A DNA stretch of 36,952 nt. It comes from Desulfurivibrionaceae bacterium. GTDB lineage: Bacteria; Desulfobacterota; Desulfobulbia; Desulfobulbales; UBA5123. Position 1 is the first letter of the stretch. Every line of letters starts with the position of its first letter. The translations under genes were made by a program, and so were the position numbers. The stretch spans positions 1 to 36,952 of the forward strand of contig JAQYVW010000028.1 in assembly GCA_030145325.1 (NCBI GenBank), in the 5' to 3' direction. This document shows, piece by piece, positions 69 to 36,851 of this stretch. A model generated the notes under the pieces. The model did no database searches and was not told where the DNA came from. It was given only the letters and a program-made list of their open reading frames with translations.

Positions 69-144
69 GGCGGCGTAGCCAAGTGGCTAAGGCAGCGGTC
101 TGCAAAACCGTTATTCATCAGTTCAAATCTGATCGCCGCCTCCA
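69..144 (+). tRNA. tRNA-Cys (GCA), phage integration target
   Basis: A complete cloverleaf can be drawn. The acceptor stem pairs GGCGGCG (69-75) with CGCCGCC (134-140). The anticodon stem is GCGGT (95-99) with ACCGT (107-111), with anticodon GCA at 102-104, so the tRNA reads cysteine codons. The T stem is ATCAG (117-121) with CTGAT (129-133) around loop TTCAAAT, then discriminator T and an encoded CCA (142-144). The part from position 100 onward is duplicated at the right prophage end, so the 3' half here is phage-supplied and restores an intact gene. Confidence 0.96.
100..144 (+). other. attL core (45-bp identity block)
   Basis: These 45 bp, from the anticodon loop through the CCA end of tRNA-Cys, recur exactly at 36807-36851. 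The flanking bases differ at both ends (T before and G after here; C before and A after at the right copy). Crossover within the anticodon loop to 3' end of a tRNA gene is classic for phage tyrosine integrases, and the integrase gene lies immediately inside this end. Confidence 0.96.
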
Positions 145-16126: not shown

Positions 16127-17122
16127 ATGGCAACTCAGCAAAAACCAAAACTGCTTGACCAGGTCAAGGATTTGATGCGGCTGCAGCGAAAGAGCGACCG
16201 CACGATTGAAGCCTATATTTACTGGATTTGCGAGTTTCTCCGGTTTCACGGGATGCGACATCCTTCTGAAATGGGCACCGCCGAGGTTGGGCAATTCCTC
16301 ACCCGTCTGGTTAGCAATAAGCGGGTTGCAGCCTCTACGCAAAAGCAAGCCTTGTGTGGGGTTGTTTATCTTTACAAGCAGGTTTTGCGGATTGACCTCG
16401 GCGATATCTCTTATTTGCATTGCAAGCGTCAGCCCCGGTTGCCGACGGTGTTGAGCCGCGATGAGGTTTGGGCGGTGCTTGATTGTCTGGCTGGTGATTG
16501 GTGGGTAATGACCGCCCTGCTTTACGGTTGCGGCCTGCGGCTCATGGAGTGTCTGCGGTTGCGCGTCGGGGATATCGATCTCGCCCGGATGACCATCACC
16601 GTCCGCAGTGGCAAGGGTGATCGGGATCGCATTTTGCCTGTGCCGCAGATGTTGGCCCCTCACCTGTCGCGGCAGATCGAGCGAGTCGAGCGAATGCACG
16701 GACGCGATGTTACCGCCGGTCTCGGCGCGGTGAGTCTGCCCGGTGCGTTGGCTCGAAAATATCCAGCCGCCCCATGGGAGTTGCGCTGGCAATGGCTTTT
16801 CCCTGCCGCTCAATTCAGCCTTGATTCTGCGGACGGCAAGCGTAAACGCTACCACCTGCATGAGTCGGCCCTGCAAAAGCAGATCCGCAACGCCGGCCGC
16901 CGCGCCGGGTTGGTGAAGCGGGTCACGCCGCACACCATGCGCCACACCTTCGCGACCCATTGGCTCGAAGATGCCGAGGGGGCGCAGGATATCGTGCTGC
17001 CTCGGCTGCAGCGGTTGCTCGGCCATAAAAAGATAGAGACCACCATGGTCTACCTGCACTTAATCACCCCGGCCAAGGTCGGCAGCCCCTTGGACAACCG
17101 CCCCCTCGCCATTGCCATTTAG
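16127..17122 (+). CDS. intI: Integron integrase (IntI-type tyrosine recombinase)
   Basis: The 331-aa protein has an N-terminal core-binding domain (about 10-90) and a catalytic domain with R138 (GCGLRLMECL), K163 (SGKGDRDR), H269/R272 (TPHTMRH), H300 (LLGHKK) and nucleophile Y309. Between the lysine and HxxR motifs it carries the extra segment ARKYPAAPWELRWQWLFPA (about 209-227), the additional patch that marks integron integrases rather than phage integrases or XerC/D. A four-residue insertion (EGAQ, about 284-287) precedes the QRLLGH helix. ACGGAGG lies upstream. It has the same orientation as the cassettes and lies downstream of them, unlike the usual divergent layout. A terminator follows. 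Confidence 0.93.
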   Translation: MATQQKPKLLDQVKDLMRLQRKSDRTIEAYIYWICEFLRFHGMRHPSEMGTAEVGQFLTRLVSNKRVAASTQKQALCGVVYLYKQVLRIDLGDISYLHCKRQPRLPTVLSRDEVWAVLDCLAGDWWVMTALLYGCGLRLMECLRLRVGDIDLARMTITVRSGKGDRDRILPVPQMLAPHLSRQIERVERMHGRDVTAGLGAVSLPGALARKYPAAPWELRWQWLFPAAQFSLDSADGKRKRYHLHESALQKQIRNAGRRAGLVKRVTPHTMRHTFATHWLEDAEGAQDIVLPRLQRLLGHKKIETTMVYLHLITPAKVGSPLDNRPLAIAI

Positions 17123-34322: not shown

Positions 34323-36164
34323 ATGGCGGATGAGACCTTTTACACAATCCTGACCGCACTCGGCAAGGCCAAGCTGGCCAATGCTCAGTCCAATTCCACA
34401 TCGGTGGATTTCGCCACCATGAAGGCCGGCGACGGCGGCGGCGATTATTACAGCCCCAGCGAAGATCAAACCGCCCTGGTCAACCAGGTATGGAGCGGGG
34501 CGATCAACTCCATCTACATCAATCCGAATAACGAAACCTATGTGATCGTTGAGGCGGTGATCCCCGAAGATGTCGGCAATTTTTATATCCGCGAGGTGGG
34601 TATCTTTGACGATGAGGGCGACATGATCGGCATCGGCAAATACCCCGAGACCTATAAGCCGACCCTCGCCCAGGGCAGCGGCAAGGATCTATATCTCCGC
34701 TACATCATGGAAACCAGTAACGCTGCAGAGGTTGAGTTGAAAATTGACCCCTCAGTGGTGCTGGCCACCAAGAATGATGTGGCGATCCACGAAGCCAAGG
34801 CGGCCAGCGAGACCGCGGCGGGGCATGTGGAGTTGGCGACCAGTGCGGAGACTCTGACCGGCACAGACAACACCAGGGCCGTGCATCCGGCAGGATTAAA
34901 AGCGGCTATTGATGCTCTCCTGGATGGCGCACCCGGTGCCCTGGACACCCTGAACGAGTTATCTGCCGCCCTCGGAGATGATGCGGACTTTGCCGCGACC
35001 ATAACCACGGCACTGGCTGGCAAGGCGGCACTTGGTGGCTTGTCCACGCAGGTGTTTAAGGCGGCACCGGCCACGGCGGATGATGAGGTTATAACCAAAT
35101 TACAAGCACAAGGGTTGATCGCCAATCTCGTGCCCTATGGCTTCTACAAACTCGACCCAATGTCCGTTGCGCTCATTAAAACCGGTGCGGAAACCCTCTC
35201 AATCAAAGCTGGCACGTCAATCGAGGTGGCCGGGCAAACAATTACATTTGCAGCCGACACCGCGCTGGTGATGCCCTCAATGTCGGCTGGCATCGATTAT
35301 GCCTGGTATGCCTGCACCGACGGCACGGTGCGGGCCGATGTCTCTTTCACCGCCCCCACCGGCTATGACATCAGCAACAGCCGCCTCATGGGCGGGTTCC
35401 ATTACGGTCTGGTTGCCCCTGGCGAGACTGTGGCGGGCGGCTCGTTTGCCACCACCGGCAACGGCATGATCTGGACTCAGGCGGATGTGGATGCAATCGC
35501 CGGGATCAACGCCTTTTCCTTATGGGATCTCAAGTGGCGGCCTCTCTGCGACCCCAAGGGCATGGCCCTGGTTTCTGGCCGCACCTGGGTGGATATCTAC
35601 CTCTGCGGCACCAACCACACCACCAACGGTACCAGCAAGGCGGGCACGGATATCGCCTCCGGCACGGTGCTGCCGAAAAAACCGTTGGAGTTTGGCGGCA
35701 ACGGCACCGTCACCTATGCAACGCCCATGTGGTGGGATTTTGTCGAAATCGCCAACGCCTATAAAAAGCGGTTGCTGCGGGAGCAGGAGTTTATCCTGGC
35801 AGCCTTCGGTGTAACAGAAAACCAGTCCATCGACTCCACCGCTGCCACCTACCCCACCACCCAACGCAACGCTGGCTACACCAGCAAGTATGGGCTGGAG
35901 CAGGCAAGTGGACACCACTACACCTGGGGCGAAGATACGGGCATGTATTACGACACCACAACCTGGTCGTGGAAGACCAGCAACGGTGGCCGGGGGCAAA
36001 TTTACACTCAGGGCACCTACGGCCTTACCAGGGTTTTTCTGGGCGGCGCTCGGACGTACGGCGTCTACTCTGGCTCACGGTGCTCGAGCTGGAGCGGCTC
36101 CCCGTGGCACGTGGGCTGGGGCATTGGCCTCCGTGCCGCCTGTGACCACCTGGCCCTTGTGTAG
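34323..36164 (+). CDS. Tail fibre with Mtd-like, DGR-variable C-terminus
   Basis: The 613-aa protein should bind the host surface. The N-terminal about 150 residues (FYTILTALGKAKLANAQSNS, NFYIREVGIFDDEGDMIGIG) are the P2 gpH-type tail-collar domain that docks to gpI. A fibre repeat (GHVELATSAETLTGTDNTRA) follows at about 161-185. The last 150 residues (WDFVEIANAYKKRLLREQEF, TSKYGLEQASGHHYTWGED, then LGGA to CDHL) resemble Bordetella phage Mtd, a C-type-lectin fold. The final 41 residues align without gaps to the Mtd variable region as I recall it. AAGGAGA precedes the start. It is followed by a GACA-loop hairpin. Confidence 0.9.
   Translation: MADETFYTILTALGKAKLANAQSNSTSVDFATMKAGDGGGDYYSPSEDQTALVNQVWSGAINSIYINPNNETYVIVEAVIPEDVGNFYIREVGIFDDEGDMIGIGKYPETYKPTLAQGSGKDLYLRYIMETSNAAEVELKIDPSVVLATKNDVAIHEAKAASETAAGHVELATSAETLTGTDNTRAVHPAGLKAAIDALLDGAPGALDTLNELSAALGDDADFAATITTALAGKAALGGLSTQVFKAAPATADDEVITKLQAQGLIANLVPYGFYKLDPMSVALIKTGAETLSIKAGTSIEVAGQTITFAADTALVMPSMSAGIDYAWYACTDGTVRADVSFTAPTGYDISNSRLMGGFHYGLVAPGETVAGGSFATTGNGMIWTQADVDAIAGINAFSLWDLKWRPLCDPKGMALVSGRTWVDIYLCGTNHTTNGTSKAGTDIASGTVLPKKPLEFGGNGTVTYATPMWWDFVEIANAYKKRLLREQEFILAAFGVTENQSIDSTAATYPTTQRNAGYTSKYGLEQASGHHYTWGEDTGMYYDTTTWSWKTSNGGRGQIYTQGTYGLTRVFLGGARTYGVYSGSRCSSWSGSPWHVGWGIGLRAACDHLALV
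36039..36161 (+). repeat. DGR variable region (VR) in the fibre gene
   Basis: The last 41 codons keep fixed residues (LGGA, SGSR, W, P, IG, CDHL) around variable ones. Many variable codons are TAC, AGC, GGC or CAC, each reachable from AAC by changing only the adenines, the signature of adenine mutagenesis. The end (about 36129-36161) would be the conserved initiation (IMH) segment. No second copy that could be the template repeat is seen in this window. Confidence 0.8.
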
Positions 36165-36182
36165 CCGGGCGACAGCCCGGCT
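36163..36182 (+). other. GC-rich hairpin with GACA loop downstream of VR
   Basis: AGCCGGGC (36163-36170) pairs perfectly with GCCCGGCT (36175-36182) around GACA. An 8-bp GC-rich stem with a GRNA tetraloop just downstream of the target is the recognition element described for the Bordetella phage DGR. It overlaps the fibre stop codon. It has no T run, so it is unlikely to be a terminator. Confidence 0.8.
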
Positions 36183-36194
36183 TTGGAAAAAATT

Positions 36195-36281
36195 ATGATG
36201 GGAGAAACCGTGGAGAGAACCAGCCAGCGGACAATGGGCCGACACCCACAACCTATTAACCCACATGGAGACAAATTTTGA
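36195..36281 (+). CDS. Possible 28-aa ORF before the last tail gene
   Basis: Tandem ATGs at 36195 and 36198 open a 28-codon ORF whose TGA (36279-36281) overlaps the TTG start of the next gene. The translation is basic (ERTSQRTMGRHPQPIN). Translational coupling is possible. The ribosome site is weak and no family is recognised, so it may be spurious. Confidence 0.3.
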   Translation: MMGETVERTSQRTMGRHPQPINPHGDKF

Positions 36282-36715
36282 ATTACTATCATCCGACAAC
36301 ACTCGAGCATATCCGTAATCCACTCCCGGCTGTTGCCGAGTGGGCAATGGGCACTGATTTAGCGGTGCCTGACTACGACCCACAAACACAACGGTGCGCC
36401 TTTATCGATGGGGCATGGGTGGTAGAAACATGCACCGCACCACTCCCCGATCTGGCTGATTATCAAACGCTAGTACAGGGCAAACTGGACGATAAGGCGC
36501 GTGAGCGTAAATATGATGGCATCCTCTCTCTGTGTACCTACGCAACCAGTACCAACACGACATTCGCGGCAGAGGGTCAGGCCGGAGTCGCGTGGCGTGA
36601 TGGTGCATGGGCTGCATGCTACGCCCTGCTCGCCCAGTGGCAGGCGGAGGAGATACCCCAGCCAACCCTCGCCGAGGTCGAGGCCACGTTGCCGGTGATG
36701 GAGTGGCCGGGATAG
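36278..36715 (+). CDS. Tail fibre-associated/assembly protein
   Basis: The 145-aa protein starts at TTG (36278), 7 nt after GGAG; no in-frame ATG fits better. It begins with NYYHPTTLEHIRNPLPAVAEWAM and contains ADYQTLVQGKLDDKARERKYDGILSLCTYAT (in part), a pattern of fibre-assembly or DUF4376-like proteins encoded after tail fibres. It probably helps fold or attach the fibre. It is the last gene of the prophage. Confidence 0.7.
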   Translation: MNYYHPTTLEHIRNPLPAVAEWAMGTDLAVPDYDPQTQRCAFIDGAWVVETCTAPLPDLADYQTLVQGKLDDKARERKYDGILSLCTYATSTNTTFAAEGQAGVAWRDGAWAACYALLAQWQAEEIPQPTLAEVEATLPVMEWPG

Positions 36716-36806: not shown

Positions 36807-36851
36807 CTGCAAAACCGTTATTCATCAGTTCAAATCTGATCGCCGCCTCCA
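36807..36851 (+). other. attR core (45-bp identity block)
   Basis: This is an exact repeat of 100-144, the 3' part of tRNA-Cys including the CCA end, without a 5' half. It is the displaced tRNA remnant left by integration and marks the right prophage boundary. Confidence 0.96.

Follow-up and report, generated by a model that had tools for sequence, protein, structure and literature searches.

A prophage tail fibre as a probable former target of an Mtd/BPP-1-type DGR lost by deletion

Prophage and tail fibre gene

The window, by which we mean the whole 36,952-nucleotide stretch that was analysed, is the entire contig C49 of a draft host genome of a Desulfurivibrionaceae bacterium (3.36 Mb, 168 contigs, 97.8% complete). 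It contains a complete prophage encoding an integrase, a repressor, a primase, a GpA-type terminase, portal, capsid, sheath and tube proteins, P2-type baseplate proteins and a tail fibre, and a 45-bp repeat of a tRNA-Cys 3' end forms its two borders.

100..144, +: attL, the 3' end of tRNA-Cys (69-144)
36807..36851, +: attR, a 45-bp copy of attL that closes the prophage

With both att copies located within the contig, no part of the prophage is hidden past the contig ends, and a concealed DGR beyond them was thus ruled out. Searches of 4 genomes of the family and 395 of the phylum recovered no sister prophage. A second tyrosine recombinase of the Phage_int_SAM_4 type (16127-17122) is encoded between the terminase and portal genes, separate from the integrase at the left end.

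The features of the fibre region are as follows.

34323..36164, +: Mtd-type tail fibre gene, 613 aa (Pfam, PDB sequence search, PHROGs)
36042..36161, +: orphan variable region (VR), from comparison with the template repeats (TRs) of L008 and other relatives
36163..36182, +: hairpin/cruciform after the VR, with an 8-bp stem and a GACA loop, identical to that of L008

L-numbers denote the loci that were compared, L005 and L006 being segments of host contigs C87 and C98, respectively. The fibre consists of a tail-collar fibre N-terminus, an Mtd second domain and a C-type-lectin-type end that carries the VR. It matched Pfam mtd_2nd (E 7e-20) and a PHROG tail family (E 1e-93), and its residues 268-612, including the C-terminal VR domain, matched the solved Bordetella phage Mtd proteins in the PDB with E values from 4e-73 (1yu3) to 2e-69. 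A preliminary description, made from the nucleotide sequence alone, had placed the fibre and its VR correctly and had likened the fibre end to the scaffold of the Mtd variable region; given the strength of the PDB matches, that resemblance is a real relationship. An AlphaFold model (17 sequences) had a pLDDT of 38 and was set aside.

Variable region of the fibre

Mtd, the logic by which VR, TR, Avd and reverse transcriptase (RT) act together, and the hairpin are established. Because the window prophage has no TR of its own, we used as reference the TR of L008, the closest relative with a DGR (fibre 85% identical). The variable core of the window VR spans 36042-36146, with adenine-derived differences at 36042-36121 and a constant, IMH-like 3' part that runs to 36161. 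Of the 23 adenine sites of the L008 TR, 13 differ in the VR, against 3 of the 84 other sites (p = 2.6e-8), and none of the eight AAY codons is left unaltered: in the window they have become A, Y, S, S, G, H, G and G. The three non-adenine differences have counterparts among the relatives: at 36147, where the TR match ends, the L008 VR has the base of the window; 36100 is A in the L008 VR and in the TRs of L009 and L047; and the T at 36064 is also found in the L047 TR and the L177 VR. When the TR positions at 36100 and 36064 were set to the ancestral state inferred from relatives, the differences over 105 positions became 14/23 at adenines versus 0/82 elsewhere; since these two positions were picked via the relatives, 3/84 is the conservative figure. 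The differences are thus concentrated at TR adenines, as in a DGR target, which bears out the earlier proposal that the fibre end varies mainly at adenine-derived positions. The constant 3' end and the hairpin that follows it are both identical to those of L008, and the hairpin is intact with the geometry of that of BPP-1.

Remnants of avd and RT

The preliminary description had reported that the window holds no RT, no Avd-like protein and no second copy of the VR. This is correct for intact genes and for the VR copy, but traces of both genes lie directly behind the hairpin.

36183..36230, +: fossil avd, the first 16 codons with a TTG start, (M)EKIMMGETVERTSQR (alignment to L008 avd, tblastn E 4e-9)
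36226..36232, +: avd/RT deletion junction, with about 1.55 kb missing relative to L008 (alignment to L008)
36232..36277, +: fossil RT, the last 15-17 codons (QWADTHNLLTHMETN), from the 3' end of BPP-1 brt and the L008 RT end
36278..36715, +: the gene that follows RT in relatives, 145 aa, 64% identical to L008 5942-6379

Of the components of a functional DGR, the RT is thus reduced in cis to its last 15-17 codons and Avd to its first 16, and neither an adenine-tolerant scan of the window nor a blastn search of the draft genome (97.8% complete) found a VR copy or a matching TR. The RT fossil is 87% identical to the 3' end of BPP-1 brt over 39 bp and also matches the L008 RT end; its peptide, QWADTHNLLTHMETN, aligns with QWADTHNLFTWMEEQ of Brt, and within its DNA lies the GGAG (36267-36270) that serves the next gene as ribosome-binding site. 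After the fibre stop, the hairpin, the avd 5' fossil, the RT 3' fossil without a gap and the post-RT gene of L008 follow one another, and the gene order on both sides of the junction is that of L008. From its position, the product of 36278..36715 probably functions in tail-fibre assembly. The fused avd/RT frame has 32 codons and its TGA stop overlaps the TTG start of this gene, so that translational coupling may persist.

The cis-DGR phages L008, L009 and L010 are the closest fibre relatives (79-85% identity) and have the same hairpin region, and L008 also shares the following gene of the window. Unlike the window, all three retain avd, TR and RT, complete and at the equivalent site. With the avd start fused to the RT end, a deletion of about 1.55 kb of avd-TR-RT is indicated as the event that orphaned the fibre. 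A DGR that is present in the real prophage and was collapsed out of the contig could give the same picture, as the assembly is a draft and VR/TR repeats with variable sites assemble poorly. However, the two sequences that meet at the junction are avd codon 16 and the RT end, which have few bases in common, rather than VR and TR, and contigs from independent metagenomes have similar deletions with other breakpoints; we therefore regard such an artefact as very improbable. A further alternative, that the Mtd-like end shares only the fold and was never a DGR target in the lineage of the window, could draw on some distant Mtd-type phages that have neither a DGR nor a fossil. The adenine-specific differences and the hairpin stand against it and the avd and RT fossils refute it, which leaves it virtually no likelihood.

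Recurrent DGR loss among relatives

Relatives were sought in phage records and among viral and genome contigs, which gave 74 distinct Mtd-type fibre ends. Scripted rules assigned 41 of them to phages with a DGR in cis and 26, counting the window, to phages without one; five with too little downstream sequence were left undecided, and two, L052 (an engineered T7-Mtd chimaera) and L054 (at a contig end), were set aside. The DGR is therefore absent from 26 of the 67 scorable ends. L007, whose VR 3' end is odd and lies at a contig end, was not relied upon, and L176, found by a pattern match, proved to be unrelated. In the cis relatives whose VR-TR pairs were compared in detail, the core differences fall almost all at TR adenines. 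In L014 (13311-14291) and L043 (14616-15668), a second DGR-like RT lies on the opposite strand about 4-5 kb past the first.

When the VR was left out of tree building, the window was nested with strong support among cis phages, and the cis/orphan label changes at least 13 times on well-supported branches. Seven relatives, L018, L028, L046, L087, L110, L149 and L177, have an Mtd-type fibre with a VR and partial traces of avd, RT or both, at breakpoints unlike those of the window. In L018, avd is joined in frame through codon 109 to the last 17 RT codons; in-frame avd-RT fusions are likewise found in L046, at an LTSQ common to both genes, and in L110. L087 keeps the hairpin, the avd start and the last ~35 RT codons, the RT end of L028 lies immediately 3' of the fibre stop, and L149 and L177 are cut shortly after the avd start; in another relative, L050, the avd start alone is left. 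Similar fossils with other breakpoints in several relatives mean that DGR loss has been recurrent, and the fossils support loss as the direction of change. For orphans without fossils, loss is assumed, and a DGR may never have been present in some of the distant ones.

A common deletion hot spot was considered, as the RT ends of the window, L018 and L028 lie within a few codons of one another, and was rejected, the end points in L087, L046, L110, L149, L177 and L029/L038 being elsewhere. The simpler reading is that many deletions reach as far as the next gene's ribosome-binding site. Two observations may be added: the in-frame avd-RT fusions of L018, L046 and L110 are three independent ones, and deletions often end near that ribosome-binding site, as if selection had kept translation into the gene that follows. 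A search of the open-access literature yielded no account of DGR fossils in Mtd phages or of repeated loss of their DGR; as most subscription journals lie outside this scope, the negative result is weak evidence for the apparent novelty of both.

DGRs of the host genome

The preliminary description had left two readings, an orphaned target or a fibre diversified in trans, and had proposed a search of the host genome for a near-repeat of the VR beside an RT. Two DGR-type RTs were found, on contigs C98 and C87, but a matching TR was not.

L006 4670-8643 (C98 about 40670-44640): DGR whose single TR is accompanied by two VRs, each in a separate protein
L005 3340-4986, -: DGR of C87, with an HRDC-like protein, RT and TR

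The C98 DGR is complete: besides Avd, RT and TR it has two VRs, which lie in FGE-type proteins and differ from the TR at 14/28 and 9/28 adenines. By inspection, the two VR proteins are a NACHT-like and a KAP-like NTPase, each with a terminal FGE/SUMF1-type domain, and they are putative defence-type sensors. The C87 TR has no matching VR across the assembly, so that here the template lacks a target, the reverse of the situation of the orphan fibre. The FGE, Avd and HRDC labels of the host DGRs were assigned from inspection of the sequences, without a profile search. The presence of two DGR-type RTs and TRs in the genome speaks for an action of C98 or C87 on the prophage fibre. However, both TRs are of the FGE/SUMF1 type and mismatch the window VR at 33-36% of the positions compared in their best placement even when TR adenines are forgiven, and the C98 TR already has two VRs of its own; such an action is hardly conceivable.

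Diversification in trans by another phage

The hairpin and 3' flank, both required for homing, are intact, and for this reason the window VR could be served by the DGR of another phage, an L008-like co-infecting phage whose Avd, RT and TR RNA would rewrite it in trans. Laboratory BPP-1 phages lacking avd-TR-brt are indeed targeted from a donor plasmid, in a process that requires the hairpin (PMC3240598), and the constant 3' end and hairpin of the window are the same as those of L008. Synonymous sites give a further argument: between the window and L008, 0 of 29 differ in the VR and 54% in the preceding 40 codons. Ongoing homing in trans would likewise be compatible with the intact hairpin and with a count of non-adenine changes of zero to three. 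However, the draft genome of the host holds no such DGR, and intact cis elements are equally explained by a recent deletion.

The contrast at synonymous sites also appears where both of the phages compared possess a DGR (L017/L043, L096/L097 and others). Since VR homogeneity is present in such cis-cis pairs, it does not single out action in trans, and we rejected it as a sign of trans homing. Near-identical synonymous sites in the VR, beside fibre codons that differ at about half of their synonymous sites, were observed in, for example, L017/L043, L096/L097 and window/L008/L177, which suggests exchange or homogenisation of VR/TR blocks from phage to phage.

Comparison of VR alleles, also proposed earlier, could be made in related phages. 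Cis-DGR contigs with identical 500-bp flanks (L063/L066/L067 and L030/L033) differ at 6-13 VR sites, and the orphan pairs have no excess of VR differences: the sisters L029/L038 differ at 11/500 flank and 5/120 VR positions, all five of the latter at third codon positions, and L024/L027 have one flank and no VR difference. These alleles support the view that diversification stopped after DGR loss in L029/L038 and L024/L027, and they weigh against service by another phage. L147/L149 (16 flank and 20 VR differences) was rejected as a trans case: L147 retains the avd start, and its VR may therefore simply have been written in cis. On balance, rewriting of the window VR by a co-infecting phage is unlikely. 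The more general idea that orphan Mtd fibres keep the hairpin and the constant 3' end because the DGRs of co-resident relatives still rewrite them is equally doubtful; if it were true, the orphans would be DGR-deleted phages using a shared mutator, and the near-identity of VR synonymous sites would be a trace of shared templates.

Discussion

Of the two earlier readings, the orphaned target is the one that stands, on the fused avd/RT ends at the site where relatives have avd-TR-RT; diversification in trans gained no support. The surprise that a fibre served in trans would be is likewise unsupported, as the host TRs are mismatched and service by another phage, though conceivable, found no backing. 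The fibre is very probably a former target of an Mtd/BPP-1-type DGR that was lost by deletion, with a VR that is now fixed. This DGR would once have stood directly downstream of the fibre in the same phage, and an internal deletion would have taken most of avd, the TR and nearly all of RT. Codon 16 of avd would thereby have been fused with the final RT codons, and the fibre, the hairpin behind the VR and, for the next gene, both ribosome-binding site and start would have been spared. The VR would then represent one fixed set of receptor-contacting residues, dating from the final rounds of homing that preceded the loss; the fibre would be expected to work as an ordinary, non-diversifying receptor-binding protein. 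We infer that it is still functional, that this phage no longer diversifies it and that the deletion happened recently.

The DGR of BPP-1 (mtd-avd-TR-brt) has in common with the window the fibre family, the VR scaffold, the hairpin geometry and the gene order before the deletion. In BPP-1-delta-ATR (PMC3240598), avd-TR-RT was lost and the VR and hairpin were kept, as in the window, and the best reading is that the window phage, with its fixed fibre, is a natural counterpart of this laboratory phage. It differs from both in the natural origin of the loss, its tail-collar N-terminus, its P2-type tail and the two fossil ends that were left. Mtd-type proteins without an annotated RT nearby are already published for Marinomonas phage P12026 and Synechococcus phages S-CBS1/S-CBS3. 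Like the window, P12026 has retained a 5' piece of avd, but these fibres are 36-39% identical to that of the window and an RT 3' fossil was not found in these phages. The present locus is thus a clear, well-resolved case of a known kind.

A target without its mutator is here explained as an identifiable event of which both deletion ends are visible, and absence of the diversifier is common among Mtd-type phages (26/67). The natural cis and orphan phages form a matched set in which one may ask when diversification of host range repays its cost, and the same set bears on whether orphan targets can be served by the DGR of another phage.
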